From NCBI RefSeq assembly GCF_025766255.1, contig NW_026516756.1:62001-126000 (forward strand): a stretch of DNA of 64,000 nucleotides, written 5' to 3'. The notes below the pieces were generated by a model. The model was not told the origin of the DNA. It did not search any database and was given only the letters and a program-made list of their open reading frames with translations. Both the position numbers and the translations under genes were made by a program. The stretch is from Zychaea mexicana. Its lineage: Eukaryota > Mucoromycota > Mucoromycetes > Mucorales > Lichtheimiaceae. Of the stretch, positions 1,607-61,537 are shown in pieces. Every line of letters starts with the position of its first letter. The stretch's first letter is position 1.

Positions 1607-4600
1607 ATGCAGCATGATCGCAACGAGCCTTTAGTTGCGTGTCTTTGCACGCGGTGTTCTTCGGCTGGTGGAGGCTATCAAATGGTGAGCCGCAGAATAC
1701 GCGAATATCACCGAAACCGCGATTTTGACCAAGCCAGAGACAGGCACTCGCACAATGGTACTTTTACAGAATCGTCTCATAGTATTGAAATGTCATAAGT
1801 CTCATTATTATGTGCTGTATATACAGTGAGTGCTATCGTTGCCGATATTGAGAGTACTTTACAGCAAGAAAATCCATCGCCATCCCCATCACCTTTAGGT
1901 GACAATTTGGATATGGATATAGACATGATCGATGATCCTCCCTCCTCCCCTGGTATGACGATGATTTGTAAATGCAATAAACATGGGAATAGACGATTCA
2001 CTATCATTAAGTAAATAGATACTGTTGCAGGCCGCCGTTTCACACCTTTTTCTGCCGAGGACAATGTGTTCTCGCTTGAAGAAACAGACGATTCCGAGAG
2101 AGATCTCGACGATGATCTTGTTGTAAATGCTGACGATGTTGAGTATGGCGATGATGAAGCCAACATTGGAAATGGCAATATCGAACAAGGTTGGTTTTGC
2201 AAAGAACGGTTTTATTATACGAAATGACAGAAATTAATGCTTTTTTTTCCCGAAAAAAAGACACTTACCTTGATCCTCCTCCTCCTCCTCCTACCGTCCC
2301 TCAGCTCCATACTTATCCGCATCCGTTCATCTTTGTCATTCTTTTCCTTGTGTTGTTCCAATTACACTTCGTCTCGGAGCATCTGTCGTGCACGATCATT
2401 GACTTTTGTATTTTACTTCTTGGTGATCTGCAACCCAATGTTTCCATTCCTGGCTCACTTGCAACTCTCCGTCGCCTTACTGGCTTCTCTGCGCTGACCG
2501 ACCGACTACGCATTTATGTGTGCTGCTCTCGTTGTCATAGCCTGTACCTTTTATCTGACCCTGTCTGCCCAACAACATGCACCAACGATGACATCCGTTA
2601 TGGTAATTTGTGCGGCAATGCATTGTTCAAGATCAGTGGCAATCGAAGGGTTCCCATAAAGGTGTATGCGTACCAGCCCTTATCTGCGAGTATCGAGAGG
2701 CTTTTTATGCGACCAGGATTTGAAGCAAAGATCGAGGAATGGCGAAACCGCAGACGAGTTGCAGACACATTTTTTGACATCTTTGATGGTGATATGTGGC
2801 GAGAGTTTCGAGACGGTGATGGCAGACCGTTTGTTGAGCAGCTTCGCTCCCTGTTGTTGACGTTGAATGTAGACTGGTTCGGCCCATTCCTAAACTCAAC
2901 ATACTCATGCGGTGCCATTTACTTATCTGTCAACAATCTTCCCCGGTCCGAGCGCTTCAAAACTGAAAACGTCATTCTCGTTGGTGTTATGCCGGGCCCA
3001 CGAGAAGCAAGTACATCTGACATGAATCATTTTCTCCGTCCATTAGTTGATGAATTGTTGGAATGGTACAATGGCAAATTGATCAGGACGTGTGAGCACC
3101 GACAAGGGACATTGGTCCGCTTGGCCTTGCTCATCAATGCTTGTGATATCCCTGCTGCACGGAAAACAAGCGGCTTCACGTCTCATGCCAGCCTTTGTGC
3201 CTGCCATAAATGCGATCGTCGATTCAATGTTTTTCCGGCCACGACCAACATCGATTACTCGGGATTCGACGTCGACAACTGGGCATTGAGGACGTACGAG
3301 GGAAATAGAGCCTGTGCTGAGCAGTGGCGTGCTGCGCCGACGATGACGGCAAGGCGGTCGCTTGAACGTGAGAATGGTACACGATGGTCCGAGCTTCACC
3401 GACTTCACTACTTTGATCCAGTCCGTTGCACGATCATCGATCCAATGCACAATCTGTTCCTTGGCACGACAAAGCGGATGACCAAAATATGGATCGATCG
3501 AGAACTGCTCACAAGAGCCGACTTGGAGCAAATGCAAGTGCTCGCAAACGGCATCGTCCTCCCGCCCGATTATGTTACCTTGAAGCGTAAAATCGAAAGT
3601 GGATTCTCGTTCATGACCGCCGACGATTGGAAATCGTGGTGCATCGTGTACTCGCCTTTGGTGCTCGATGGCCATCTCCCGCGTATGTATATGCAAAACT
3701 GGTTGATATTCGTGGACGCATGTCGTTTGTTGGTTAAGCCGTCAATAACTATGGACGAAATTGCAAAAGCAAGCACTCTGCTCCAGCAGTTTTGCACCGG
3801 TTTTGAGCGACTGTACGGCGCGGAGGAAGTCACACCTAACATGCACCTCCACATGCATTTGGACGCAACGATTGAAGATTTTGGACCCTTGTATGCTTAC
3901 TGGCTCTTTTCTTTTGAACGGTACAACGGGTATCTAAAGGAGATTAATACCAACCAGAAGGATGCTTTTGAGGTGACGTTCATGAAGAAGTTCTTGCAGA
4001 AGACCGGAGCTCGCGATTTTGTCCGATCGTTTGAAGCCCTCTTCGAAAATCGCCAACACCATTTCAGCTTTCTGAATGCTTTTCTGGACCTTGTGCAGCC
4101 GATCCCACAAGCCGTCAATGTTATGCAGCATCAGTTCGATGTCCATGCGTTTCTGGCTTTGTCTACCGATGTTAGAGTCACTTCTGTCACAGGAAGCGAG
4201 CCGCTACCGACAGACGCATATCCTTTGGATTACGGACGGATAGCATATATGCCTGCTCAACTGTATGATTTCTTGTTCGAATTCTACCAAGTAGCATATG
4301 GTGTGCCTTTCCGTCGTCATAACCAAGCTGGTGATGGGCAAGGTTTTGTCAGTGATCAATACTGGAAAATCAAGACAATAACAATGATGGGACAGACCTA
4401 CCGCAGTACCGAAGCGAGATCGCGACGGGGTGCATATGCGCAGGTTCTCTTCCATGCTGACGACCGTGGGGAAGTAATGGCTTGGCCTTGCGAAATCCAT
4501 TTTTCTTTCGCCATATGCAGCTTGTTCACGGTCAGCAACTGAGCATATTTTTGCGTACGTCCGTTGGTACGGCATCCACGGAGACAACGACGGCCAACGA

Positions 4601-13779: not shown

Positions 13780-14001
13780 GAGCATCTCCAACAGTCGTTC
13801 TAAATTCTATTTTAGGATTCCGAAATAGAAAATTTCGAGTTCCAACGGTCGTCCTATTTCTATTCTATTTTAGAAAAGCGTCAAATTTTTTAGAATAGGC
13901 GTCCCAAAATTAGGGCAAGTTTTCTAAAATAAAATCGCGTTGTTGTACGCAGTAAAATAAAGCTCTCTCTTCTTTATAAATCACTTCCTTTTCCAACAAC
14001 A

Positions 14002-14929
14002 ATGTCTTCCAGTTCTTCTGCCCCGATCCCCATCACTAATGTCGAATCTTGTGTCGAATCGACCACCGTTCCCGAAGTTGTCGCAGAATCGTCGACAGCA
14101 GCAGCAGCAAAAGCTGGCAATCGCGGTCCGAGCTGGAGCAATGAAGAGGATGTGTGGTTGTGTCAATCCTGGCTTGCCACCTCCACTCGTTCGTCAAAGG
14201 GCACCAATGCTCCCCTCTAAATATTGTGGGAGACTATCTACAAAGATTTTCTTCAAAGAGGGGGAGATAAGGATGTACGAACTGGCCAGGGAGCCCTCTC
14301 GGGCCGCTGGGGTACCATCCAAAGAGAGGTGTCTAGATACTGCGGTTGTCTTGCAAAAGCTCTTGCGCGAAATAAAAGCGGAAACAACGAAGAAAATGAG
14401 GTTAGGGGATGTTAGTTTTCATAAACGATACGATACCAGTACTGATGAATATATGGGAGTGAAGAAAGACTACGCAGTAACGCCGTATAAGAAAGCTGCG
14501 AAATCTGCTTGGAAGTTTCAATACTGTTACAATGAGCTTCATGAGCAACCAAAGTTCAGTAGCAAGTATGTCAATGTGACAAATCAAAGCGCACCTGAGT
14601 ATGTGAAGCGCCCAATCGGTCGCAAGAAAGCCAAGGAGCAAGAGAAGGAGGATGGAACGCGCAAGCGTATATTGGACGATGATCGCGCTCGATTGGCGAA
14701 GGCTGAAGAGGAGCATGTCCAGAATAGCCGCAGGCGCATCGAGCTCCAGGAGAAAATGAACGACGATGAAGTGATGCGAGAACAGCTCGACAGATACTCA
14801 GGAGCTGAACTCGAGTACTGGATGCTGAGAAAAGGCGAGGCTTTGGCCAATGCAAAGGCCAGAATCGCAAAAGCCATTGTCCAGGACGTAGAAGTTCAAC
14901 AGACTACCGACGACGAAGTTGACGAGTAA
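14002..14929 (+). pseudogene. Harbinger 2 accessory Myb/SANT-like protein, broken
   Basis: ATG at 14002. The head is Ser/Ala-rich and is followed by a Myb-like segment (RGPSWSNEEDVWLCQSWL). An in-frame TAA (14218-14220) follows, after which the same frame continues with KDFLQRGGDKDVRTGQ and GALSGRWGTIQREVSRYCG, typical of the No-apical-meristem-like/trihelix DNA-binding partner. A frameshift near 14400-14420 leads to the C-terminal part, which has KRPIGRKKAKEQEK and a long coiled coil and ends at TAA 14927-14929. One nonsense and one frameshift make it a pseudogene. Confidence 0.7.
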
Positions 14930-18849: not shown

Positions 18850-19012
18850 TATTTCAGAGTACACTGAAAGCACTAGAGGACATCTATTATAGGTCTCATA
18901 TAACTTTTAAACTAAATCACTTATTAAAAAAAATTGAATTTTCTATCTAAAAATAAAAATAGTTGAAAACAGATGATTGAAAACTTTATAGAAAATATTT
19001 TTAAAATACGAA

Positions 19013-19885
19013 ATGTTTATAGAAAGTTACCATATATTAAAGAAAGCTTTTGATAATGAAGTTGATGGAATAAATTATTTACTAGATAATAAATATATAA
19101 AAAAAAGAGATATATGTGACGAATGTAAGAATAATAATATTAAATTTAATTATAAACGAAAATTATATGTTTGTAATTATTATAAATATAGAAAAACATA
19201 TTCACCATTTAAAGATACAATATTTTTAAAAATAAAACTACCAATTCATTACCAATTACATATTTTATATGAATTTTTAAAAAAAACACCAATAACTAGT
19301 ATTTCTAAAAGTTTAAGTATTGATCATAAAACAGCTATAAAATATCATAAAATGTTTGCAAAAAATATTGATAAAAATATAAAGATTGATAAAATTGGAG
19401 GTAGAAATTCAATAGTAGAAATAGATGAAACGAAGATTGCCAAAAGAAAATATTATAAAGGCCATAAAGTTGAAGGAGCATGGGTAATTGGTGGTATTGA
19501 AAGATCTAGATTAAAAAATAAAATTAAAAACGAAAATAAGAAATCTTTTTTAATACCAATTAATATTAGAAATAGTGAAAGTATAAATAAAATCATTAAG
19601 AAATATGTTAAAAAAGGAACAACAATATACACTGACTGTTGGAAAGGTTATAACAATTTAAAAAATATAGGGTATAAACATAAAATAGTAAATCATAAAA
19701 AATATTTAAAAGATCCAATTACCAAAGTTCATATAAATGGAATTGAAGGTACTTGGAGTGGATCAAAAAGAAGCATTAATATAAGAAATTGAACAACAAA
19801 TGGTATAGAATTACATTTAAAAGAATACCAATGGAGAAAACGATATAAAGAATATGATATATGGAAAAAGTTTTTAAAAATATAA
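19013..19885 (+). pseudogene. Merlin transposase (ISXO2/IS1595-like), one nonsense codon
   Basis: The ORF runs from ATG 19013 to an in-frame TGA at 19790-19792 and then continues in the same frame to TAA 19883-19885 (EYQWRKRYKEYDIWKKF), exactly as in copy 2. In the intact copy an Arg stands at the TGA position, so CGA to TGA is the likely change. Features: an N-terminal zinc ribbon that has lost part of its second Cys pair (CNYYKYRKTYS, compared with CKNYKCRKAYS in copy 2), a helix-turn-helix region, and the catalytic residues Asp in VEIDETKI, Asp in IYTDCWKGY and Glu in NGIEGTWSG. It is probably inactive by itself but could be mobilised by copy 2-type protein. Confidence 0.85.
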
Positions 19886-20253: not shown

Positions 20254-20759
20254 ATTATAAATATCTGTCCTTGGTAAAGATATAAAACTTACTGGTAGGA
20301 TAGATGGCAAAAATAAAAAAAAATTGTTGAATAATATTAATCACGTGATATGAAACCTATTTTCTATATAATCCAAAGCACTCTGAAATCAGGTTTTAAA
20401 TCTAGTGTAGCACTAGAGTTGGCAAGCGATTTCAGAAGCACTGAAAGCATACTGAAAGCGGTACTTTTAGAGTGCTTTCAGAGTACTTTCATGATAGCTT
20501 TCAGAGTACTTTCAGAGTACACTGAATGACTGTTTTGGCGCATATGCATTACCAACTGTTTTTATATAAAAACAATTAGTGGTAAGTTTTTTATTAATAA
20601 TAAAAATTTAAATTGATTATAAAATTGAATTTTTATTTTCTAAAAAAATAAATTTCTCAATAGATTTAATCAATTTTTATAATAGTTGCACTTAATAGTT
20701 TTCTTCCAATTAACCATATACAATTACGTAATAATCTATGTAATGAAATAGGTACTTTC

Positions 20760-21038
20760 ATGAAATCTGAATTTGACCATTTCTTAGAAAAAGAAAAAAA
20801 AATAGTTGAAAGAATACAAAAAAAAGTAAATAGAAAAATAATGGATTTATTTTCCTCTAATTATTTCTTATATCTATCTATAAATAATAATTTTTGTACA
20901 CATATATTTAGAAAGGGTAAATATGAAGGAGAATTTTGTGCCCATAAAATTAGAACAAATCTAAATAGTAAAAAACCAGATTATCTTTGTTGCAGACATA
21001 GTAAAAATCATATTCCAAAAAAAAAAAAAAAAATGTGA
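20760..21038 (+). CDS. Small Lys-rich protein with a Cys/His zinc-binding motif
   Basis: 92-residue ORF. An N-terminal charged helix (EKEKKIVERIQKKVNRK) is followed by a motif CTHIFRKGKYEGEFCAHK and then LCCRHSKNH, so Cys and His residues are arranged as C-H...C-H...C-C-x-H with a GKYEG turn. A poly-Lys C-terminus is made of an A-run (13 A), a slippage-prone site. Its Cys/His spacing resembles small zinc motifs seen in transposon and large DNA virus proteins; no precise family is recognised. It is convergent with the chromodomain transposase and about 170 bp from its stop, so it is probably the second gene of that element. Confidence 0.5.
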   Translation: MKSEFDHFLEKEKKIVERIQKKVNRKIMDLFSSNYFLYLSINNNFCTHIFRKGKYEGEFCAHKIRTNLNSKKPDYLCCRHSKNHIPKKKKKM

Positions 21039-21209
21039 AAAATGAGAAAATAGTTGAAAAAGAAATTGAGAAAAAAAAAGAAAAAAAGAAGAAAAAAACA
21101 AAAAAAGAAAACCCATAAAAATTACAATAGGAAATCCTTTTTTCTTATGCTTTAACAATATTTTTCCATAAATTTTTTATATAAATTCTATTATATATAT
21201 TATGTTCTT

Positions 21210-22730
21210 TTATAATATGCCTAGACTATGCTCTTCAATATATGCTTTCAATAAATCTTTTTGATTAAATATATCAATAGATAACCAACTACTACCATTA
21301 TTACTATATCCAACCCATTTTACCTCAAATAAATATATATTATTTTCTTTTTTATGTCTAATAATACTTTCTATTTCATATGATGTAGTTGAACGCTGTT
21401 TTCCTTTTATATTTCTTCTTCTTTTTCAAGTACGTTCATTAAAATTAGGTATATCATTATCACTTTCATTATTTTCTGAATTATCAGATTCAGTATTATC
21501 TATAGCCATTATATTATCTGATATAGTCATATTTAATAAATTATTTTGTATCTGCACCATTCTATCTAGTTTATTTTTATTTTGTTCATTATTGCTAACA
21601 ACTATATCCACTAGTTTTTTCTCAATAGGAAAATCAAAGTTATTACTATGCCATAATTTATGATGTGGCAAGATAGGAACATTAAATAATTCAACAAATT
21701 TATTTATATTTTTTAATAAACATACTACACGAAATTGAAGATTATAAAACTTAATATTATCTATCTTTACAATTGATGTATTATTGTTGAAACGATAAAA
21801 TTTATTACCAATTTCAGAAAATTGATTTTCAATTTTAGTTCTAAAGCTTCCAAATATATTATTAAACTGTTCTTCAGTAATTATTAAATTTTCATTTATG
21901 TTTTTACGAATTGGATAAACAAAATTATCATTACTAAATTCATACCCTTTTTCATTAAAAAGTTCAGTAAATTGTGTTATAAATAGAGTATATCCACCAT
22001 CAACTGCTAAAGTATCATTTTGATTCATCTTATTATAAAGTTTCATATTTAAAAACATGCTACCATCAGAACTATCTACACAGAATTCACTTTTGGATAT
22101 AAAAAGTATCATATCATTAATATCAGCAGCAAATTGAGTACGTAAACCATTTTTCTTAAATTTGTATGAATATAAACATGACCTATCTAAATCTATATCT
22201 GTATAACTAATTCGTGAGTCATGACCATCTAAAATAAGTGTTACATATTTAAATAAATCAGGATTGTATTTTCTAGTAGATAAGATACGCAACTTTATAT
22301 TTGAAGACATATTTATTAATGAATCATTTACTATTTTATTAATTCGTTTAAAATTTTCTTCATCCATCCAAAATTTTTTATTAAAAGTATGAAATGTACT
22401 TTGAGGTAAATACTTTTCAATATCATTCCCAGGAATTCCTGAAACTAAGTGATATAATAGAAATAATCCTTTTTCAATTTCAAAATATAGTGCTGGATAT
22501 TCTTTATTTGTATACAAAATAACTAAAAAGAAAAAAACAGCAGTATAACCTAATTTCTTTAATAATATATTTTTAATTTTTTCAATAAATTTAATATGCT
22601 TAATTTCTGCTCTATGTTTAAATCTATTATATATAATAGGCCAGTTCAAATCAAGAAAAGTCCAATAATTTGCAGTAATAAATTTTATTTCATCTGTAAT
22701 TAATGGTGTATAATCTATTTGATCCATCAT
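21210..22730 (-). CDS. DDE transposase (DDE_4/HARBI-like) with C-terminal chromodomain
   Basis: ATG 22730. An open stretch of 434 codons ends at TGA 21426-21428, and the same frame continues 71 codons to TAA 21210-21212. Domains: N-terminal helical region (1-90); nuclease core with Asp168 (ILDGHDSR), Asp244 (AVDGGYTL) and Glu301 (RTKIENQFSE), the order and spacing of DDE_4-type nucleases; Asp/Asn/Glu/Ser-rich linker (about 405-440); chromodomain (about 451-500) beginning YEIESIIRHKK and containing FEVKWVGY and SSWLSIDIF. The three cage aromatics (Tyr451, the Trp of VKW and the following Tyr) are present. The TGA lies just before the basic linker (KRRRNIKGKQR); CGA to TGA decay, or a separate shorter product, would explain it. 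A second diverged copy with the same fusion lies at 59934-61537. Confidence 0.75.
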
Positions 22731-22820
22731 TTTATTTATAATATAGAATTTAATTTATATAAAAAATTAATTACTTTTTATAAAAACAATTATATCTTTA
22801 TAGCTATATAAGTATTGCAG

Positions 22821-23827
22821 TACCTACTTTGTTTACGGGTGATACACGTCTCCTGTATGTCATTTGTAGCTTCTTACTAGCTGGAGAGATGTTTAAGCGA
22901 CACAGTGACATTGGCGAGTTCGTGGCTTCCTGTGCATTAGGGCTTACTAATGATTCGTTGGGAGAAACAAACTTCCATTCCCTTTATCCAATTCCATTTG
23001 CTCAAATACCACTCATACACGCCTTTTTATTTGCTCAAAATTGCTCACACATGCATATAATATATTGGTCTTACGTGCATATAGCCAATGATAGTGCTCT
23101 ATTAGACGACACGGCACTGACGGTGACGCGTCAGCACAGGTAGTAAATAACAGGATGTAAAAATAGTATACAAAAAATAGTAGGCGAAAAAAATACAAAA
23201 GAAGAGCCATTTAGAAACTATTCTATAAACTATACATGCTGATGGTATTCAAAAAGCAGCAGTACTAAGGGATTCTTGTTACAGCGATGTATATAGAGAT
23301 TTCCTATATATAAAAAAGAGAAAAAGTATGATCATTTAGAATACGTCCTATACTATATTGCTCTATGCTATTATAGCCCCCATCCTTAAACTTACCCTAT
23401 AGTACATCATCTTGTTTCGTTTTCATGGACCACTGTAGCCTAAGTAGGGATGAGATAGATGAGGTTATAGCGAGCTGGTTAGTAACATGAAAGAGGTTGA
23501 AGGAATAGCTAGTGAAGTGAACTCAATCTCATTGGCAGAAGTGAAAGGAAGTGAAGTTGCTCAAGTGACGGTGTTAGTATGAAGGACTTCAAGGAAGACA
23601 CATTCAGCACGAAGATGTGACGATCTGATGAGGCCATTCAAGTAAAAAAGCTCAAAGTACAAGTTGGAGATGCACAGCAAATGTAAAAAAAAGTGGGTAG
23701 AAGAGAAAAAGGTGACGAAATTGAGTGAGCAGAGCGGAATACTAAATAATCAAAAAGAGCGGCAAAAAGATACACGTAGAAGAAGCTTTTGAAGAAACAC
23801 GTCTTTCATATAAAAAAACTGCTTTAT
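22821..23827. other. Intergenic stretch, no supported gene
   Basis: An open frame at 22829-23143 (+) has no recognisable motif. Around 23480-23780 a Lys/Glu-rich pseudo-coding texture with many stops is visible on the + strand but cannot be assigned. Confidence 0.35.
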
Positions 23828-26079: not shown

Positions 26080-29000
26080 ATGTCAACTCCCCCACGCTTC
26101 CATCCTTACACTGGATCCAAACAGAGCCGTACTGTGTCATTGCACAGTTGCTTTGTATCAAACGACTCGCACTGTAAGCTTGTGTCAGCACGAACAGAAC
26201 GTCGCCATCGTCACGACCACGGTATAGCCAAGTGTATGTTGTCATATATATATTGCTGCATATGTTGTTGTGTACATATTGTTGTATGGTTCCTGATACA
26301 TAAATGGCCATCCTTCTAGTTTCTGCATGGCGCGAAGGTCGTTCAAGCCTCCAGCTACTCTATTCGGATCAGCCAAGCACCGACGAAAGTTGTAAGTTGT
26401 CATTTGTCTTCAGAGTGGGAACGTCTTAGGTTGTTCGGTGCTAGTATCGACGATCAGACCAGTAACGTTATTGCCATTTGACCCGTTAGCTACACCAATG
26501 GAGCTCGATTCAAGCTTGAGTGAGAGCATGGCCAAGCTACAAGCACGATTGACTTGCTGCAACCGCCACCATCAGTTTGACATTCGACATTACTGTTGAG
26601 GGAGAAGAGGACGAAAACACTGATGGTAAATTCATGTTCTCGTATAAACTAAAGATAGTAGCAAGAAATTCAAATTATTAGTATCTCATACACTATGTTC
26701 TACATAGATATTACACGACCATCCGACTTCATTATCATGTTTTACCTTTTCCTGGCCTTGTTCCAAGATCGCTATTTGAGCAGGGCTGGTGGTGAGCTGC
26801 TCCTCCATTTTCTATCTGTCGTTTTTGCGGGTCTCTACATTCCAATCAGTATCCCACGGTCAATGGCTACTGTACGCCGCTTATCCGGTCTTAACGAGCT
26901 CTTGGATTGCGGTCAAGCAATCGTTATATGTCCCAGCTGCCACTGCCTCTATCCTAATGAACATATACCTACCGACTTGAAATGCTCGTTCCAGAAGTTC
27001 CCACACCATCCAATGACAGCACACCGAGCCTCATGCGGCATGAACTTGTTTCATTTCAGAAACAGAAACCTTGTACCTCCCAAACTGTATGCATATCATC
27101 CTGTGTCAGCAAGCCTTGCAATTATGATGCGTAGACCAGGATTCAGCGAAAAACTCCAGCACTGGAGGAAGCGAACCCCACGAGCAAATTCTTTGGATGA
27201 TGTATACGATGGTCGCAAATGGTGGTCGATAATGGCGCCAGAATCCACGGCAGAAAACCCTGTATCATTCGTTGGACGTGTCGGAAATCAACACTCACTT
27301 ATGTTGATGCTCAATGTCGATTGGTTCCAGTCATTCGATAAGCAGACTTCATATTCTGTCGGTGCACTATATATGACAATCAATAACCTGCCCAGATCTG
27401 AACGATTCAAGTCATCAAATGTCATATTAGTCGGTATAGCACCGGGACCCCATGAAAGTTCTAAAGGTACCAATTTGATTACACTGTTACTTATCTTTTT
27501 GCTCGTTGATTCTGGAGTCTCACATGTGTGGTTCTGATTTCCTTTCTTTTTTTTGTATTGATAGAGCAAATCAATAATTTCTTGCGTCCAATGGTCAACG
27601 ATCTGTTACAATTATATCACGGCAAAGATATGGTTATTGATGACGGCTCCTTGGTCAAAGTGCGAGCAGCTCTATTGTTCGTAGCATCGGACATACCGGC
27701 TTCAAGAAAGGTTTCTGGCTTTACAGGTCCAAACTCATTCTACGGATGTAACCATTGCGACATTTCCTGGCCATCGCAAGCAGAGAATCCAAGGCTGCGC
27801 GATTACTCCAACTTTGACTTTCCTTGGAGATTGCGCACAAAGGCAAAGAACTTGGCAGACGCAAAAGCTTGGAAGGCAGCAAAAACGGCTACCGAAAGGA
27901 CACAGTTGGAGAAGTCAAATGGAACACGCTGGTCCGAGTTGCATCGTCTTCTATACTTTGATCCCGTTTCGCAGACAATAGTCGACTGTATGCACAACAT
28001 GTTCTGCGGGACAGCCGAGCGCATGGCCACCATATGGAAAGATGACGGAACCTTGACCAAGGAGCATTTGACCGATATGGAGAGTTGCCTCGAAAAGAAG
28101 GTGGTGCCCCCATCATACAGCATCGCTCGCGGCTGTATTGCGACTAGATTTGCTGGAATGACGTCGGATGAATGGAGGTCGTGGACTGTTGCACTCTCGC
28201 CGTCGTTGTTGAAGGGAAGGTTGCTTGGAGAGAAGATGGCACACTGGTTGCTCTTTGTCGCAGCAGCACGTCTCCTGTGTAAGCCATTCATCACCATCGC
28301 CGAAAACGAGGAAGCCCACCAACTGCTGCTCAAATTTGGCCGCAACTTTTCAAGATTGTACTCTAGAGATCAAGTCACGCCAAATATGCATTTGCATGTT
28401 CACCTTCGCGACATGGTACTCAATTTTGGCAGCTGCTATAACATGTGGGTATTCAGCTTTGAGCGGTTCAACAAGATCATCAAGAACCAGCACACCAACC
28501 AAAAAGACTGTTTCGAGCTTACGTACATAAAGAAGTTCTTGAGTGTCGTGTTTGCCGATGACATGGTCCGACGAGTCGTGGTCGAGCGGTGCGGCAACAG
28601 CACGATTGCCAGACAGATTGCTGAGCTGTTGCTGCCACAATCAGAAGCCATGCAAGAGCATTACGATTATCAGCCGTTCTTGGATCAATCAGATTTCGAC
28701 TATGCCGCAGGAGTAAGTGTAGTTGGTTAGGAGCCGCTGCCACCATCATGTCTTCCCCTCAAGACGGGCAGAAAGGTGTACATGGATACACGCCACTACC
28801 ACTGTCTTGTCGAGTATTACTAATCGATGTTTCCAGACATAAACTTTGTGTCACTCGCCAGCACTAGTAGTAAGCAGGTCAGCGATCACCTCTACAAATT
28901 TGCAACAGTCGATCTCCTGGGCCAAGCGTTCATTTCCGAAATGTCTCGCCACATCAGCACTAGCACCTATTCCGAGTCGTTTGCCCAAGTACTCAGTTTC

Positions 29001-31631: not shown

Positions 31632-34600
31632 ATGAGTACTCAAGAGGTATTGCCCCAGAATCAGACAACTTATGAACACCAAATGTGTCGCTGGAAGCTT
31701 CATTCGAATTCAAATGGAACCAAATTCAGTCGCAAAAATGACTTCTTACAAAAGCCGGGTATTTTACTCATTTTTTTTAATTTTTTTTTCACAAAAAGCA
31801 ATCACTCGAAGTTCACACCTGTCGCTGCGGGTCGACTACTAACCAACGTGTTTCTTTCTATAGATGTCCTTTGAATGAGCACAATGTCCGGCGCAGACTT
31901 CTTGATTCTGAAAATGTATGCACCTGAACTAGCTTATATTGTCTATTTTTCCTTTCTTATTTCCTTTGAACGTAGGAACAGCAGGAAGACACTATGAATA
32001 TCATTATTGAGAATCCAGTGGAACAGGAAGCTAGCACCATTGAAGGTATTGCAGCTACTATACGCATAAGGCGTAAGAGAGAGAGAGAGAGCAACAAAGA
32101 GTGCGTGTTTCCTTGATAGGCGATCTATGTCATCCTTTAGGAAAAAGAAAGTTTACAAATGAAATTTCGAATAGTTGCTGAGGATAACATTATTGAGGAT
32201 GAGGACACTCCTGTCAGTGACTCAGCAACCAACGATGATGTGACAACAAGCACCAACACTACTACCAACAATAATAGTACTGCTTCTGTACACAGTTGCT
32301 CTAGATGTGGATCACCCGATCATTCGCGCTCTTCTAACCGCAGCTGTCCTTTCCATCCCAGTAACGTTGAATCCCAACATGGCACTCAATTCCAAAAAGC
32401 CTGCACTATTCCTTTCGTACCTGAACATATTTTCGGTCCAAACATCTGCTATATGCCCAGAACTTCGTATCGTCATCATATTTTCCCTCGAATGGACACC
32501 ACCTGCTCTTTTTGTCATGCTCGAATGTGGATAGATGAGCGTATCAAATCCTCCTCTCTCTTGAGACCACGCTTTAGCATTTGCTGTACTCATGGAAAGA
32601 TACGTCTCCCTCTTCCTCGCGCTCCTCCTGCACCACTTTGTGATCTTCTGATCAATCATGATCCAACGGACCGAGTAGCTGTGGATTTCCATACCAACAT
32701 TAGGGCTTACAACAATTTGTTTGCCTTCACCTCCATCCGCGCCAATTGGGATCGTGATCTGGCAAGTGGAAGAAATGGAGTTTCTACTTTCCGAATTAAT
32801 GGCACTATGTACCACTGTCTTAGTTCGTTGCGTGCACCTGAAACCGTACAGGCTCAATTCGCGCAAATATACTTTGCAGATGCATAGGAACAATTGGCGA
32901 GAAGAACGACATTGCGTTCTGGATTAAATCCGGACACGATTGCAACTTTGCAACGTGTGATGCAGGAACACAATCCATTTACATCAACTCTCATGACAGC
33001 AGCTGAAACACCTGGCGATCAACCCGTGGGATCTATCAGTGTTGTCATTCATACAGCGAGCGATTTGGGAAGGCGATACGATCAACAAGCTTATCCCGAA
33101 GTAGCAGCAATGGTCGTTGAAAATATAGTCGATGGTTCAGCAACACTACATGATATCGTGATCCATGACCGCACTGAAGGACTACGCCAAATAAGCTCCC
33201 TTCACCCATCCTATATGCCGCTCCATTATGTGCTTATGTTTCCTAATGGTGACAATGGATGGTATCACGGAATGAGGTGTCGATCAGCAGATAACCAAAC
33301 AGTTACTGTCACTTTGCTCAATTTCTGCGCATATATGCTGATGTTTCGTGGCGATGATCAAACGTTCCATCATCATTTCGGGCGTTTGTTTCAGCAGTTG
33401 GTCGTGGACAACTACGCCTGTATTGAGAGTGCCCAGTTGTTTTTCATTTCGACACATCAACAAGATCTTCGTGCTGAACTGTATAGCGGTGTTGGTGACG
33501 CTGTGGATCCACGTCAAGTCGGTCGCTCCATCATTCTTCCTTCTTCATTTACGGGAGGACCACGCTATATGAAACAAATGCTTCAAGACGGCCTTGCCAT
33601 TGTTCGTCAACGTGGAAATCCTACCCTCTTCATCACTTTCACCTGCAATCCGCAGTGGCCAGAAATCGTTGCTGAGCTGCTCCCTGGGCAAAAGGCGTTT
33701 GATCGACCGGACATTTGTTCTCGAGTTTTCAATATGAAGATCACCGAATTACTACACTATATTGTGGACTCAAAGTGCTTTGGTCGGGTTGAAGGGTATT
33801 TGGCAACTGTGGAATTTCAGAAAAGAGGATTGCCGCATGTGCATATCCTACTTATTTTAAACGAGCAAGACCGACCCCACACGCCAACTGATTACGACAG
33901 ATTTGTGTGTGCGGAATTACCTGATCCGTTGACTCACCCTCAATTGTATGCAATGGTCACTTCCTGCATGATACATGGCCCTTGCGGAGATGCTGCACCA
34001 GATGCTGTTTGTATGAAAAACAGTCGTTGTTCACAGCATTATCCCAAGCCATTTTCTCTAGAGACACACGTGAATCGTGATGGTTATCCTATGTATCGAC
34101 GACGCCAAAATCAACGCCAGCATACTTTTCAACGAAGCCGATTCACCGCCACCAACCGACATGTCGTTCCCTACAACCCGTATCTTAGCCAAAAGTATGA
34201 TGCTCATATTAACGTCGAAATCTGTACCTCTGCTCGAGCCATCAAATATTTGTGCAAGTACATCACTAAGGGATCCGACCAAGCGCAACTTGAAGCGAGA
34301 ACGCGGACTGCTACCACTGACACAGCTGCCCAACCTGATGCCATTGATGAAGTAGTCGAGTATCAGAATGCACGATACATAGGACCATGTGAGGCAGTTT
34401 AGAGAACGCTGGAATTCAGAGTGCATATGCACCATCCAACTGTAGTGCGCTTAGACATCCATCTGCCTGGCGAACAGCTGATGGTATTTCGGGGCGATAT
34501 GACACCTCAGGAATTCGAGTTAGCTCGCAATGCTGCAGCTACTGGGACCAGGCTACTCGGTTTCTTTGCTCTTTGTGCTTAGGATCCTACTGTATGTCAG

Positions 34601-36823
34601 TACACGTATACGCAAATTCCTTGCCACTATACTTGGGACGACCGAAACGATAGATGGAATCCTCGCACCAACCCACCAGTACAGAACGTAGTGTCTCGTA
34701 TATATGCTGCTTCAATTTCCAACATGCCATTATATGCCCTTCATCTCCTTCTTTTGCATGTCCGAGGACCAACAAGCTTCGAAGCGTTGAGGACAAAGGA
34801 TGGGGTTGTATATGCAACTTTTCAAGAAGCGGCCGTCGCCTATGGTTTTTTGGAGTCAGATCTGGAATGGGACGACTGTTTGGCTGAGGCATCCATTACC
34901 GGGCCATCTGCAGCTGCAATTCGAGTACTCTTTGGGTATATTCTCATCAATTCATCACCAACCGACCCACTTACCTTATGGAACAACCACCGTGATCGAA
35001 TGGCTGACGACTACTTTTTCGAAATGCGTAGAACGCTATCACTTTCCAATGAGAATGAGTTGCAACCTGATCAAATCGAGTAAATATATCAACGTGCACT
35101 CGGTGATTTAGAAATGCGATTGAATTCAACAGGCCACCATCTTACCGAATTCCCCTCCATACCACAAGAATTCGTTACCGAATTAGATCGTCTGCCACCA
35201 CTAGAAGCTCTGGAAATTGTAGAAAGGCGCGAGTACAATATAGAAGTACAGCACCAGCTAATTCAAGCTTTGCTTCCCACATTGAATGAAGGCCAACATC
35301 ATGCGTTCGATACCATTGCTGATGCCATAGATGCTCCTACAATTGAGTATAGTTCGCGTATTTTCTTTATCAATGGTCCTAGTGGTACTGGCAAGTCGCA
35401 GCTCTTCAAGGCACTCTTGAGCCACACTCACTCCTACGATCAGATAGCCTTGCCTGTTGCTTCTTCAGGTATTGCTGCTATTTTGTTACCCAGTAGGCGA
35501 ACTGCGCATAGTCGCTTTAAAATTCCCTTGAATGCCGACGAAAGCATGAGCTGCAATTTGCGTCTTGGTGGTCCACATGCATATCTCATACAGAGAGCAT
35601 CGCTTATTATTTGGGATGAAGCAGTCATGTGCAGCAAGCACAATTTTGAAGCAGTCGACAGATCCTTGAGGGATATCATGGGTGCTGTAGATCCCCACTT
35701 GGAACGTGTTTCGTTTGGAGGAAAAGTCGTTGTTTTCGGTGGTGACTTTCGCCAGCTACTCCCTGTCGTCAAAAGAGGGACACGGTCCCAAGTTGTTGGA
35801 GAATGCATTCGCTCTGCTTCTTTTTGGTCGGCAGTTCAAGTACTGTATTTGACTGTCAACATGCGAGTACTCAATGCAAGTCCTGATGCTGCAGCATTTG
35901 CCGATACCCTTCTCGCCATTGGGGATGGTCGTCCACTGTATACAACCAGTGTCGAGATACTACCAGAATGGCGCATCAACACAAGCAATCTAATGTCATT
36001 GATTAACGCCATCTACCCTACTATCTGCAATCCCGATCCTCAACTACATGAATTCAGCAACCAAGCTATATTAGCAGCAAAAAATATCGACGTCGACATT
36101 ATCAACGATGCAGCATTCTCTGTTTTCCCTGGCACAGCACGCATATATAATTCGAATGACCGCGTCATTGATCACGATGACCCAGAAGCTGCTGCTGCCA
36201 ACTATCCAGTTGAGTTCTTGAACAGCATTAGCGCAAGTGGTGTTCCAGCACATTCCCTGCAGCTCAAAGTTGGCATGCCATTGGTCATCTTTCGGAACCT
36301 TGATCCTGACGCTGGCTTATGCAATGGTACAAAAGTTTTTGTCACCAGACTTCTTGAATGGAGTGTTGGTATTAAGAGAATTGATGAAGGATATGAAGGT
36401 ACTGAGCATTATCTGCCACGGATTAATATGTGCACAACTGAGGGCGATTACCCATTCATCCTATGTTGCTGCCAATTTCCTGTCCGACCAGCATTTGCAA
36501 TGACCATATATAAGGCTCAAGGTCAAACCCTTTCGCATGTTGGCATCCGGCTTCAAGAAGACGTTTTTGCGCATGGCCAGCTCTATGTTGCTTTTTCAAG
36601 AGCAACAAATCCAATAACATTCGTGTTGCCATCGATCTGTCAGGGTCTGGACTACCACAAACCACCAACATCGTATACCAAGAAGTCCTCTTGCATCCGC
36701 CGGCCTCTATTCCTGAACAAGCCGAAAATTCACCACCAACCTCTCCCACTACAACAATCACCACATCTCCACCTCCATCACCCTAAACCCTTTTCTGCTC
36801 TTTTTCTTTTTGCTTTCTTCTAA
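31632..36823 (+). mobile_element. Helitron copy 2 (Rep-helicase element)
   Basis: Holds the N-terminal zinc exons, the Rep domain and the full helicase in order. The 5' and 3' ends were not located; a G-rich hairpin block at 40675-40850 like those at the ends of the other Helitrons could be its 3' end if the Crypton (37.7-40.5 kb) is inserted in between. It is a different family from copies 1 and 3, which resemble each other more closely. Confidence 0.65.
31632..36823 (+). pseudogene. Helitron Rep-helicase with four in-frame stops and no frameshift after 32159
   Basis: Short 5' exons begin at 31632 (MSTQEVLPQNQT) and at about 31795 (zinc-like CRCGSTTNQR and YRCPLNEH), with GT-AG introns. The main exon runs from 32159. 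Domains: Cys/His motif CSRCGSPDHS; Helitron N-terminal region; Rep core KRGLPHVHILLIL (HUH) near 33820; catalytic tyrosines in KYLCKYITKGSD near 34245; helicase Walker A NGPSGTGKSQ near 35375; Walker B IIWDEAVM near 35610; C-terminal AFAMTIYKAQGQ and VFAHGQLYVAFSRA near 36490-36600. In-frame stops are TAG 32885-32887, TAG 34400-34402, TAG 34580-34582 and TAA 35081-35083; the frame is otherwise continuous for 4.6 kb. It would catalyse rolling-circle transposition if open; now inactive. Confidence 0.85.
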
Positions 36824-37719: not shown

Positions 37720-40219
37720 ATGCCTCAACAACATCATAACTATTTGTCTCAAATCTACAATACCGGTTCCTCGTCATCCCAATCAGCTAACGAGTTTGCT
37801 AGTCAATCAAACAACAATGCCGTTCACGCTGCCGAATTGAATTTGGCCATGCTGCAATCCAGACAACGTACGCAAACAACTACGCAGGAGCTTCGTCCAG
37901 ACAACACTAAACACGCCTATTACCCAAAGATCAGCGAGTTTTGTAAGTGGTGCGACGAAAAGAAGTTTCCTGAATCCACTCATTATCAAGTAAATGGCGA
38001 CAAATTGCACTGGTTTCTTGAAAAAAAAGTAAGTAGTGGTATATTGACAATATTCAAAAGATCGCGTTAATTGTAAAGAGGTTGTATTAAACTAATTGTA
38101 CTACATTTTATGTTTAGGTCATTGGAAGAATCCGACGTCCTACTGGTAAAAAGCAACTACAAGCCAACGAAGATTCTGACCCGAATGACAATGATATCGA
38201 AACAGAACAAGAGGAAGTTGAGCGTTACATCGTCGGCTTTAGCACCATCGAGCAGTATGTCAGCGCCATCATCCAATTTTACAACGATCAACTTAAGCTT
38301 GGTATCAACACCATCAACAACTACCCACGAACCGCCGATGTCAAGGACTTACTAAAGAACGAAAGAAAGAAGGATAGCAAAAGACGCCGCACGAACTACG
38401 AAGATCGCGCTGCTGGGTCAATCTTGGACGGATACTCTACCATAGAAGAATTAGCCAGAATAATCGACTACTTCATTGGCAAGGACAAGTCTGAGCACTA
38501 TCGCAACGCAGTGATGATGTTGATCTCACACTTTGGTCTCATGCGTGGCGAGAACGTCCAGGAAATCGAGCTGGCCGACATACATACCATTCCATTGGAA
38601 AATGAAGGCCCTACTCCAGATATCGAGTTCCCCTGTTTGGTTTTGCTGCTGGACCATGGAAAGACAAACCAATTTGGTAAAATCCAGCATGGATCCGCCA
38701 TCCGCTGTGCATATGTCGAAACCTGTCTTTGGATGGCCCTCGGCCTGTATTTCTTCTGTCGTTGGCATGTTGAAGGCGAGGAATTCCCAGATATGTCGCG
38801 CCCACAATCCTGGTATAACATCAAGCTATGCAAGACCGACAACGGCGATCTCACCAAGAACATCACCCAGCCTGCACATTACAAGGCTCTGTCTAAGGCT
38901 TTCGAAGCATGTAGGATCAACTCAACAGCCATTACACATGCTGGTAGAAAATCTGGTAGTAAAATAGCAGATCTGGGTGAAGCTGGTGATTCGGCAATTC
39001 GACGTGCTGGAAGATGGACCACTGACTCCATGGAGGGATCGTACTTGACCAACTTACCACAGCGATTATTGCGCGCGATGGCAGCTTTCGATGCCAACGG
39101 TAAAAATTTCTGGCTACCGCGCGATAGCGTTCAGCCTCGAGAAGTCGAGAAGCTTTGTTCTGTAAAGTTTTCCCGTGGATTGAAAAGTGGCAAGAAAAGA
39201 TCGATCAAGGACTAGGAGACAAAAGTGTTGCGGCAGACAGATTCCTTCAGATGCTGCGTGTTCTTCGAAGGACCTTTTTGCAAGATTCAGTATTAATGAT
39301 GGAGCGACACCCAGATTTATCTGTTTGGAAGCAGCCTCTGTTCAGCGATCAAGATTATTTGGATTTCAAACTGTGTAAGTAATTGAAATATCATTAAAGA
39401 GGTTATTACATGGTGCGATTATATATATATGAGTTATTTACCAATCGTACCTTGATTATTTTTAGTATGTTGAAGACTGCCATTGAAACGGCACCACTAC
39501 CCGAGGAGCTCACTTTGCAGAAGTCGATGCCAGCTTTGCACAATTACATGCGCGAAATGTATCGCGATCTTTCACAGAAACTAGCTGTCCTTTCTCGAAC
39601 GGTCGAAGAACAAAATAGAACCATGAATCAATTCATGGGTGATCTGGCAAACGGACGACTGACTATCACGGTGCAATGGAACACACAACAGCAATCGCAG
39701 GCAGCTGCACTTTCTACAACAGCATCAACATCACATCCTACCTTTGCCGCCTCTCCTACATCATCATCCCATCCCGCTTTTGACCAATCTGCCACTAATG
39801 CCGCTTCAACTACCACTGCATCATCATCTTGTCCTATCCCTGCTAACTCGCCCGCGTCTCCACCAAATACAACCATGGTAGCCCCAGCCACGACATCCTC
39901 AAGCAGCCAAATGCCAAAGTACAGGATGAGCGAAAACGTCACGAGCATCCCGGATTTACACCGCGAATGGCATTATGGGCTATCCGGAAAACCTGCCATC
40001 AAAAAGCTGGAGGCTGATTACGGGAAAAAATGGCGTGGAGACAAGGCAAAATGGGTGTATCGCAGGCAACAAATAGTAAAAGGTATCGACGCGTTTATCG
40101 AGTGCCATGGTTTACAGCAGGATGAGCAGCGTGCTTTGGCTATGTTAGAATACTGGCGAAAGCACCCAAAGGCTGAATGGTGTGCTGGAGGAGTCATAAA
40201 ACCGAAATCCCTGGATTAG
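37720..40219 (+). pseudogene. CryptonF tyrosine recombinase with GCR1_C-like DNA-binding tail
   Basis: ATG 37720 (an upstream in-frame ATG at 37669 is possible). Exon 1 ends at 38028 with GTAAGT; exon 2 starts at 38118 in phase. The N-terminal SAM-like part (SEFCKWCDEKKFPES) is followed by a basic segment (KKDSKRRRTN) and the tyrosine recombinase core: Arg in FGLMRGENV, His/Arg in ITHAGRKSGS, Arg/Trp in SAIRRAGRW, and nucleophile Tyr in GSYLTN. A one-base frameshift near 39150 leads to VFPWIEKWQEKIDQ and a second intron (about 39377-39463). The last exon (39464-40219) has a coiled coil, a Ser/Thr/Pro-rich linker and a GCR1_C-like domain (YRMSENVTSIPDLHREW and EADYGKKWRGDKAKW). Cryptons integrate as circles by recombination; no TIRs are expected. 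One indel only, so recently active. Confidence 0.85.
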
Positions 40220-53399: not shown

Positions 53400-55152
53400 A
53401 AGATTCTAGGGTGAGTGTACGTGGGAGAACGCTACATATAGCTGGCCATGTGCAAAAACTGGCTTAAATAAGCACAGTACTGCTCTACTGAGGGTTTGAC
53501 CTTACGACTTGTTGATTGTCATTGCGAAGGCAGGAACCATACGAAATTGATGACGGCACAATTTAAATAGAAGATCACTTTCCTTAGAATATAAGCTGAT
53601 ACAGGGAATGTACACGATTTCACCTAAGTAACAGTGTTAAGAAAAAACCGTACTGACAACGCAATAAAAAAAACTTGAAAGCAGATTATATGTACCTGCA
53701 AAATCTCCTTGGGCAATTTCAGCCTCAAGAACATGTGGTAAAAAATTTCGACATATCGATCGCGTTCTGTTGCAAAGACCCTTTTGAGGATTGATGTTAC
53801 GAAGGAGCATGATAGGTTGATTTCATTTAAGGGAAAGTCTGTGAGGTGGATAATTGCGTAAGGTGATCGTATGTAAGTATTCTGGCGGGTGAGTTGCCTC
53901 AAATGCTTCGGAGTCGACGATTCTATCAGACGAAAGATACTCATGCGTTTCTCCAGGGAAGATACTCAGTGCAGCATTATTCAGGGCGCGGACATCGTCA
54001 TTATAAGGGGCTAAAATAGCACAGCCTGTCATATAGTCGCGACTGGTGTACTGTTCCTCTAAGTCAGAATAAGCTGCGCGAACTACTGTTGTCAGGCTGT
54101 CGGTGATGTCGCTGGATTCTGGAGGCAAGGTGATTGTTGTAGCGTCTGAGCTAGCAATGGATGTACCGGGCTCATGTCCTTCACCCAAACGCAAAAGGTA
54201 ATCGGCGAATTGCTGAAGTTCACAGGCAATTGCTGGATCAGAGCTTTGTTGAACATGCATATTTTGGGTAAGATGGAGCACGCAGCCAATATTGTTGCGG
54301 AAAAGGTAGGAGTTAGTCAAAGAAGCATCGAGGATGTCAGGTTTGGTGCCTTTAGTAACTACTGGTAAAGTTTGACAAAAGTCGCCACCAATGACGATAG
54401 TCTTTCCACTGAATGGGATACGCTGTAAACAACGATCAGTGACAGCCATGATCTCCTTGAACAGTCGGTCAACTGCCTCGAAAGCAAATTTATGACACAT
54501 TGGTGCTTCATCCCAGATGATAAGTTGTGCTTGTCGAAGTATTCGGGCTTGAGGACTTTGAACTCGAATAGAACAGACAGTGTCACTATCAAGATCTAGA
54601 GGAAGCCCGAAACGACTATGTACTGTACGACCGCCTCGTAGTAGAGTTGCAGCAATACCGGAAGAAGCAACGGGTATGGCAATTCTATCCTCAGCTCGAA
54701 CGTTTGCTAACAATGCGTTATAGACAAACGTTTTTCCTGTGCCACCTGGTCCATCAAGGAAAAAAACTCGACCGCGCTCTGGTACTGCTACAGAAGGATT
54801 TTGGCTATCTTGAAATGCTTGGATAATTTGATCGTAGGCATGTACTGGATTCAAGCTGTACTTGGCGACGATGATGCTCAAGGAAGTCGGCAGCAATTAC
54901 ATTGATATACCTAATCCACAGCTCAGCAGGCGAAACAATATCACAGAATGCAAGGATAACGGCGAATAGGTCACGAAGCCTTGATGCTGATATAGTAACT
55001 TCAGCAGCCTCAGCAAAGCATCTGTCCCACTCATCGTCATCTTGTAGTAAGCCACGGGCTTGCACTGCAGCTTTGAAAGTAGGGTATTGTGTTCCTTCAA
55101 AGGTACATATGTCTTCAAAACTGGTAGCACCGCGAACATGCAACAACAATAG
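53400..55152 (-). pseudogene. Helitron copy 3 helicase part
   Basis: Reads LLLLHVRGATSFEDI, then, after the internal deletion at ~54840, DSQNPSVAVPERG, Walker A FLDGPGGTGKTFVYN, Walker B LIIWDEAPMC, KTIVIGGDFCQTLPVV and LTQNMHVQQSSDP up to TGA 53823-53825. The TGA corresponds to CGA in copy 1. The C-terminal motifs follow to about 53450 through further breaks. The core is in better condition than copy 1. It resolves 5'-3' unwinding during rolling-circle transposition in active elements. Confidence 0.82.
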
Positions 55153-59933: not shown

Positions 59934-61537
59934 TTAAAATCTCATATTATTTTTTATAAAATATTTTATAATCAAATCTTTTTTGTTAAAGTCTTTTTCA
60001 TTAACCCAGGAGTTTTAAGATTCATCATAATCCTTCCACTTTACTAAAAATATGTAATCATTTAATTTATATTCTAATATGTTTTCTGTTTCATAAAAGT
60101 TGTTATTTTTATTTATATCCCTAATTAAATTTATATTTATTTTTCTAGCACTTTTTCCTTTTTTTACTCTTTTTCTTATTTATATTTTTATATGTGGGAA
60201 AATCAATTTCTTCTATTTCATTATTATAATTATTGCTATCAATTATATTTTTAGTATTTTCTAAATTTTCATTATCTATTATCATTTCATTATTATTTAT
60301 ATCTAAATCATCAAATTTTTTTTGTATTTCTGACATATATTTTATTTTATCTAATTGTTTTATTTCATTATTTAATACTATATTAATTAATTTATTATCT
60401 GTAGGAAACTCAAAATTGTTTTCTATCCATAACTTATGATGATCTTGTGTTATAATATTAAATGTTTCTGTAAATATTTTTATATTTTTTAAAAGAAAAT
60501 ACTACTTTCATTTGTAAATTAGCATATTTATAATCATCTGTTTTTAAAGTAGAACTATTATTTGAAAATCTTTTAAATGTATTTCCTAATTCACAAAATT
60601 GATTTTCTATACTTGACCTAAAAGAACCAAATACATCATTATAATGCTTTTCATATTTATTTAAATTTTCATTAGGCTCTTTCCTAATTGGATAAAAGAA
60701 ATTATAATCATTTAATTCTATATTTTTATTTTTACATAATTTTTCAAATTGATTTATAAATAATGTATAACCGCCATCAATAGCAATAACATCCCTTTTA
60801 TTAATTTTATTATAGATTTTCATATTTAGAAACATACCTCCATCACTACTCATACCACATAATTCACTATCTGAAACTGTAATAAGCATATTATTTATAT
60901 CTGATAATACCTATGTCCTTAATCCAGCTGTTTATAATTTATATGACTATCTTTTTTGACTTGAAATATCAGGTTTACTATAATCAATTGTACTATTGTG
61001 ACTATCCAATAATAATGTTATATTCTTAAAATTTTTAGGGTTTTTTAATAAAGCTGAATATACTCTTATTTTAATATTACTAAACATATTTTATAAGCAT
61101 AAATTGATATATTTATTTAAATGATCATAATTTTCAATCTAAAAATTTTCTATAAAAAGCATAATAACTTGCATAGGGAATATTTTGTTTTATATCTTTA
61201 CTAGTAATTCCTAATATAAGATAATAAATTAAATATAATCCTTTTTCAATTTCAAAATAAGGGGAAGGGTACTCTTTATTGGTATATAATTTAGTTAAGA
61301 AGAAAAATACAGATATATATGCTAACTTATTTAAATTTCTTTTTTTATAATATTAATTTCTTTTATATTTTTTAACTCAGTTCTATGTTTATAATTATTT
61401 AATTTTTTTTTCCAATTATCATTTAAAAAGTTCCACTCATTCAATATAATTTTATCAACCTCATGCTGTAATAGTTCTTGATATTCTTGTTTTTCATTTT
61501 TATTTAAAATAGTATTACTGTATTCTTCAAATAACAT
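59934..61537 (-). pseudogene. DDE transposase with C-terminal chromodomain, copy 2, broken
   Basis: Pieces on the minus strand: N-terminus from ATG 61537 (LNDNWKKKLNNYKHRTELK); a decayed middle with DSHNSTIDYS-like sequence near 61000; the core in 60889-60458 with SSDGGMFLNMK, AIDGGYTLF (second Asp) and SFRSSIENQF (Glu). After a frameshift at an A-run near 60480 come ITQDHHKLWIENNFEFP and the linker (60336-60145). After another A-run indel near 60150 the chromodomain is read (about 60085-59945): YETENILEYK, FLVKWKDY, NSWVNEKDF, with one in-frame stop. Residue order and architecture equal copy 1 (21210-22730), with substantial divergence. Confidence 0.72.

Follow-up and report, generated by a model that had tools for sequence, protein, structure and literature searches.

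A DDE_Tnp_4 transposase fused to a chromodomain in a DNA transposon of Zychaea mexicana

Can a cut-and-paste DNA transposon carry a chromatin reader on its transposase, and would such a domain guide its insertion into heterochromatin? The question is raised by a stretch of 64,000 nucleotides of the fungus Zychaea mexicana (contig NW_026516756.1, positions 62,001 to 126,000; the whole stretch is called the window here). The original prediction had described, at 22730-21210 of the minus strand, a DDE_4-like frame followed by one TGA and a tail, and had interpreted it as a transposon that targets heterochromatin. The coordinates agree with our analysis. Of the interpretation, one part is supported, namely that a DNA transposon has its DDE transposase joined to a chromodomain; the heterochromatin targeting stays at the level of inference. 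What the window holds is a decayed copy of a cut-and-paste DNA transposon with two genes, from a fungus of the Mucorales type. The fused gene is made up of the following parts:

21429..22730, minus strand: transposase part, 434 amino acids, DDE_Tnp_4, with catalytic D168, D244 and E301
21426..21428, minus strand: in-frame TGA that interrupts the window copy and is read through in intact relatives
21210..21425, minus strand: C-terminal tail including its stop codon, in the same frame as the transposase
21234..21380, minus strand: chromodomain (tail residues 16-64), with a Pfam Chromo match at 7.1e-07 and a predicted fold, modelled on the relative L009, that matches solved chromodomains

The fusion is supported by Pfam, genomic copies, homologues, selection and structure. 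The transposase part and the tail of the window copy were scanned as separate pieces, and both domains exceed their Pfam cut-offs, as the original prediction had expected: PF13359 (DDE_Tnp_4) matches at E 4e-07, and PF00385 (Chromo) at 29.5 bits against a cut-off of 25.1. The tail frame downstream of the TGA (21425-21213) has 71 residues. D168, D244 and E301 are invariant across a 46-row alignment. The three cage aromatics of the prediction were also found (Y451, W472 and Y475, numbered on L009), the second tyrosine standing three residues after the tryptophan and not two as had been stated. Structure prediction, which had been proposed for the tail, gave a confident chromodomain fold, and the model, made for L009, fits onto chromodomains that bind methylated histones with a deviation of about 1 Å. 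The linker between transposase and chromodomain has low model confidence and is probably disordered. Among the best 50 rows of the fold comparison no structure is named Harbinger or PIF, and no transposase was seen among 60 of the 82 rows of the sequence search of solved structures.

The genome searched comprises 50.3 Mb in 305 contigs. The transposase part occurs at no fewer than 97 genomic places (99 rows, of which two are second pieces of a copy, from a search in which 97 out of 694 candidates received a score), and the idea of a single odd copy was rejected on this ground. Another 28 copies were fetched, namely the 20 best-scoring and 8 chosen for having no listed internal stop, so that this sample is enriched for intact copies. 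The tail, whose consistent absence from the copies had been named as fatal to the prediction, was found by tblastn downstream of the transposase in all 28 (20/20 and 8/8), wholly or partly frame-shifted in L023, L027, L032 and L036. With the window copy included, the DDE frame was recognised by profile in 29 of 29 loci and the chromodomain frame above threshold in 26; the three that fail (L015, L023, L032) have broken tails. Both domains lie in a single uninterrupted frame in 17 of the 29 loci. Eight of these 17, L009, L012 and six others, have full-length joint frames of 506-540 codons from stop to stop, and copies without the TGA, for which the prediction had suggested a search, thus exist. 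L009 is the nearest copy, with 94% identity over the transposase part, and its uninterrupted frame of 506 residues carries both Pfam domains above cut-off (PF13359 at E 1.1e-08). The window holds a second member of the family, listed here with the position of its parts:

59943..61495, minus strand: second copy, diverged and broken, found by tblastn; transposase 60247-61495, tail 59943-60125 (tblastn E 2e-06), about 42% identity to the first copy

The tail evolves like a coding sequence and is under selection. Averaged over pairs, the ratio of nonsynonymous to synonymous change (dN/dS, Nei-Gojobori) came to 0.22 in the transposase part and 0.36 in the chromodomain. These figures are rough, since silent sites are close to saturation in many of the pairs; they come from 21 copies including broken ones and from 191 of 210 pairs, close or non-finite pairs having been dropped. 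Outside this genome, a protein search reported 121 homologues, of which 120 were listed, and the counts below refer to these 120 plus the query. A profile made from 46 of these sequences finds the tail in 74 of 121 proteins (73 of the 120 listed homologues and the query). In 68 of these 74 the three aromatics stand at the cage positions, 57 of them as Y-W-Y. The closest named homologues, at 88%, are from Circinella minor (Mucorales). Named tail-bearing homologues come from Circinella minor and Apophysomyces; named tail-less ones come from Lichtheimia, Mucor hiemalis, Phascolomyces and Haplosporangium (Mortierellomycota), that of Thamnidium being partial. Some Circinella proteins are already labelled 'Chromo domain-containing protein' in databases, which shows that automatic annotation picks up the domain pair.

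The window copy does have a stop between transposase and tail, and it could be argued from this that the tail belongs to a frame of its own, or to a chance one, that happens to follow the transposase, or that it resembles a chromodomain only by chance. The uninterrupted full-length frames of L009, L012 and six others refute both a separate gene and a chance look-alike. The same domain pair recurs in many homologues, and the signs of coding selection on the tail and its confidently modelled fold point the same way. We consider this explanation to have next to no chance of being right.

How old is the fusion? A tree inferred from the transposase part, with 87 rows (65 with and 22 without the tail), calls for no fewer than 8 changes, and its midpoint root has tail-bearing rows on either side. 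The simplest reading would be an old fusion followed by repeated losses, and some of the 'losses' may be truncated gene models. It was also observed that in the tail-less clade P0049-P0061 the C-terminus is a short hydrophobic peptide (e.g. KKPIVVVENLDR) after a basic patch. The terminal peptide looks like a candidate HP1-binding PxVxL or SUMO-interacting motif.

Our analysis adds to the original prediction the ends of the element, its target duplication, a further gene and the repeat into which the element is inserted:

20537..22827, minus strand (by transposase): whole transposon copy, 2291 bp, from copy comparison and empty sites
22828..22830, no strand: target-site duplication on the transposase-start side, AAA on the minus strand
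20534..20536, no strand: target-site duplication on the opposite side, AAA on the minus strand
20670..21038, plus strand: second gene, a small Cys/His-rich protein, an open frame of 122 amino acids conserved among copies

The ends were taken from a comparison of 21 copies and were placed partly by eye, so that the count of duplications alone is not independent evidence. All 8 copies with both ends located have a 3-bp duplication, with the triplets ATT (4), ATA (2), AAT (1) and AAA (1); TWA was seen in none of the 8. The terminal inverted repeats agree at 9-11 of 17 positions in six copies and at 6-7 of 17 in two, and random pairs do as well in 1-49% of draws. The insertion of a bounded element is established mainly by empty sites, which are the decisive evidence. 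When the flanks of the window copy are joined, they align along their full 180 nucleotides with 13 genomic sites that lack the element, at 89-96% identity. The copy L013 sits inside another family member, and the uninterrupted relatives L021 and L036 show its junction base by base. The empty sites of the window copy and of L013 fit one duplicated triplet. Eight full-length empty sites were found for L014 and seven junction-spanning matches for L015; L011 gave two poorer junction matches, one with a length change. The insertion site in the window (20384-20533 and 22831-22977) belongs to a dispersed repeat, and 19 other matches to it were counted in the genome, two short ones left aside.

The second gene, open reading frame 2 (ORF2), lies between the stop of the chromodomain and the far end of the element and is convergent to the transposase. 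In the window copy it has no near-start methionine of the kind seen in its relatives. In other copies its open frames reach 183 residues, and the frame is kept in several divergent copies. The window copy, L009, L012 and L029-L034 share the pattern C-T-H ... K-G-K ... C ... C-C-x-H-S-K-x-H. In the genome-wide search, 150 of 267 candidate ORF2 matches were listed, and on this basis an ORF2 match follows at least 49 of the 97 transposase copies within 1.5 kb, on the strand opposite to theirs; among the matches listed, 2/97 copies have one downstream on the same strand and, as a control, 5/97 have one upstream. Of the 150, 99 are unpaired with a listed transposase copy and are perhaps non-autonomous elements or further subfamilies. 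A Pfam search with the window ORF2 at E up to 1 gave no match, and the protein search gave two homologues only. The protein may be a DNA-binding or nuclear helper.

What could the chromodomain do for such an element? The best explanation, and in our view a somewhat probable one, is that it guides the element to repeat-rich heterochromatin. The transposase would excise the element, and the chromodomain, for which binding of a methylated histone tail is predicted from fold similarity, would attach to methylated histone H3 on silent chromatin, most likely to H3 methylated at lysine 9 (H3K9me). Strand transfer would thereby be held to heterochromatin rich in repeats, in which additional copies would cause little harm. 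The convergent Cys/His protein would act as the helper, in place of the Myb-like protein of Harbinger. Such targeting is plausible in view of the preserved cage and of the tested insertions, since each of the five (the window copy, L011, L013, L014 and L015, taken from the 8 copies whose ends are known) is inside a dispersed repeat, in one case a sister transposon. Taken by itself, five out of five suggests targeting and is not proof of it. A single Pre-SET match in the genome was also counted for targeting, as was the H3K9me2 heterochromatin of Mucor, described in PMC12863538.

Several observations weigh against guided insertion or are neutral to it, and some of them would suit a different main role for a real chromodomain: mobilising copies that already lie in silenced chromatin, or assembly or regulation, with the pile-up in repeats produced by selective loss elsewhere. 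Indeed, the five insertions could reflect the loss of insertions in genes; they, like the methyl-lysine cage, speak for targeting and are compatible with a non-targeting role as well. The proximity of 97 family copies to 125 Ty3-type integrases was compared with that of the 148 out of 162 mariner matches that were listed and were no second piece of a copy. An integrase lies within 10 kb of 11 of the 97 family copies and of 14 of the 148 mariner copies (p 0.67). A uniform distribution would give at most 4.4% within 10 kb, contig ends being ignored, and both families are above this value. No significant difference between family and mariner appeared at 20 kb, at 50 kb or after thinning of clusters (lowest p 0.14). 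By that measure placement in repeat-rich DNA is not special to the family. A neighbour of the same family lies within 10 kb of 15 of the 97 family copies as against 58 of the 148 mariner copies. The tail also appears dispensable at least sometimes, because a clade of 11 proteins, supported by an approximate likelihood-ratio test (SH-aLRT) of 91, persists entirely without it, as do other proteins; altogether 47 of the 121 proteins are without it by profile, many of them fragments. Within the genome, a Pfam search that scored 150 of 429 candidates placed a Chromo match within 2 kb of at least 30 of the 97 copies, a lower bound, as the tail of the window copy was itself not among the matches listed. 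The terminal inverted repeats appear weak. Finally, no chromoshadow (HP1-type) protein was found in the genome by a search that was silent in all controls too. We hold a main role other than insertion targeting to be less likely than not.

The chromodomain could also read another mark, H3K27me3 or a non-histone methyl-lysine, and any targeting would then be to facultative chromatin. The top chromodomain in the fold comparison was CBX4, of the Polycomb type, within a tie, which counts against the best explanation. Against a different mark, the best phmmer matches of the window tail are the H3K9me readers Swi6 and MPP8 (E 0.001-0.003), by small margins and with unrelated proteins close behind. 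We regard this alternative as rather improbable.

Taken more broadly, guided insertion into heterochromatin could have evolved in a lineage of two-gene DNA transposons of early-diverging fungi, convergently with Ty3 chromoviruses, and some branches could later have swapped the chromodomain for a hydrophobic peptide that possibly docks on a heterochromatin protein; this is a tentative proposal that we would sooner doubt than accept. If true, the family would offer natural pairs with and without a chromodomain for testing the role of this domain in a DNA transposon. Guidance by a chromodomain is known from the integrases of retrotransposons, and a DDE_Tnp_4 cut-and-paste transposase that ends in such a tail would show that this solution also arose on another kind of enzyme. 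The family is small in size, has intact copies and includes relatives with and without the tail, which means that the question could be tested in a model fungus. A DNA transposase that targets itself could serve as a heterochromatin-directed insertion tool.

Other frames were observed in the window. A frame resembling IS1595/ISXO2 transposases adjoins the element (PF12762, 8.6e-16), and a frame of NDC10_II, a domain of the yeast centromere protein Ndc10, follows shortly behind a Helitron helicase frame. NAM-associated proteins are partners of some Harbinger elements, and one such frame is also present.

2158-4539, plus strand: Transposase_21 (tnp2, CACTA-type) frame
13961-14926, plus strand: NAM-associated frame, 9e-08
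18992-19789, plus strand: IS1595/ISXO2-like transposase frame
27510-28727, plus strand: second Transposase_21 frame, just under the Pfam cut-off
32888-36820, plus strand: Helitron-type frame pair (Helitron_like_N and PIF1 helicase)
38118-39212, plus strand: NDC10_II frame, 4.4e-28
53826-56427, minus strand: second Helitron-type frame pair of the same composition

Where does the element stand among known systems? PIF/Harbinger elements have a DDE_Tnp_4 catalytic domain, a 3-bp target duplication with the consensus TWA, and two genes, the second being Myb/SANT-like. The window family is alike in its DDE_Tnp_4 domain with D, D and E, its 3-bp duplication and its two genes. It is unlike them in the chromodomain at the end of its transposase, in its triplets (ATT, ATA, AAT and AAA, not TWA), in a Cys/His-rich partner that has no Pfam match and is not Myb-like, and in its apparently weak terminal repeats. 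Since its triplet is a different one and a Myb-like partner was not found, we call the element PIF/Harbinger-like and do not file it as a member. The open-access literature searched gave no account of a chromodomain on a DDE_Tnp_4 transposase. Maverick/Polinton elements are giants with an rve integrase and a polymerase, whereas the window family is 2.3 kb long with two small genes. Both are DNA elements, and passages of PMC10799480 place chromodomains on the integrases of Mavericks as well as of Ty3 chromoviruses. Ginger1, as described in parts of PMC2836005, is a DNA transposase with C-terminal extra domains, a PHD finger in one family; it differs in being integrase-like and in carrying a PHD finger and not a chromodomain, a word absent from the main text of that paper. 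Gypsy elements of brown algae also carry chromatin readers, according to a passage of PMC12477816. The PHD finger on Ginger1 and the chromodomains in Mavericks give chromatin readers on the enzymes of DNA elements a precedent. With Ty3 chromoviruses the window family shares a chromatin reader at the C-terminus of the DNA-joining enzyme, which probably works alike. It differs from them in having DDE_Tnp_4 and not an rve integrase (the 506-residue frame of L009 matches only DDE_Tnp_4 and Chromo in Pfam, with no rve), and in being a 2.3-kb DNA element with a target triplet and empty sites.
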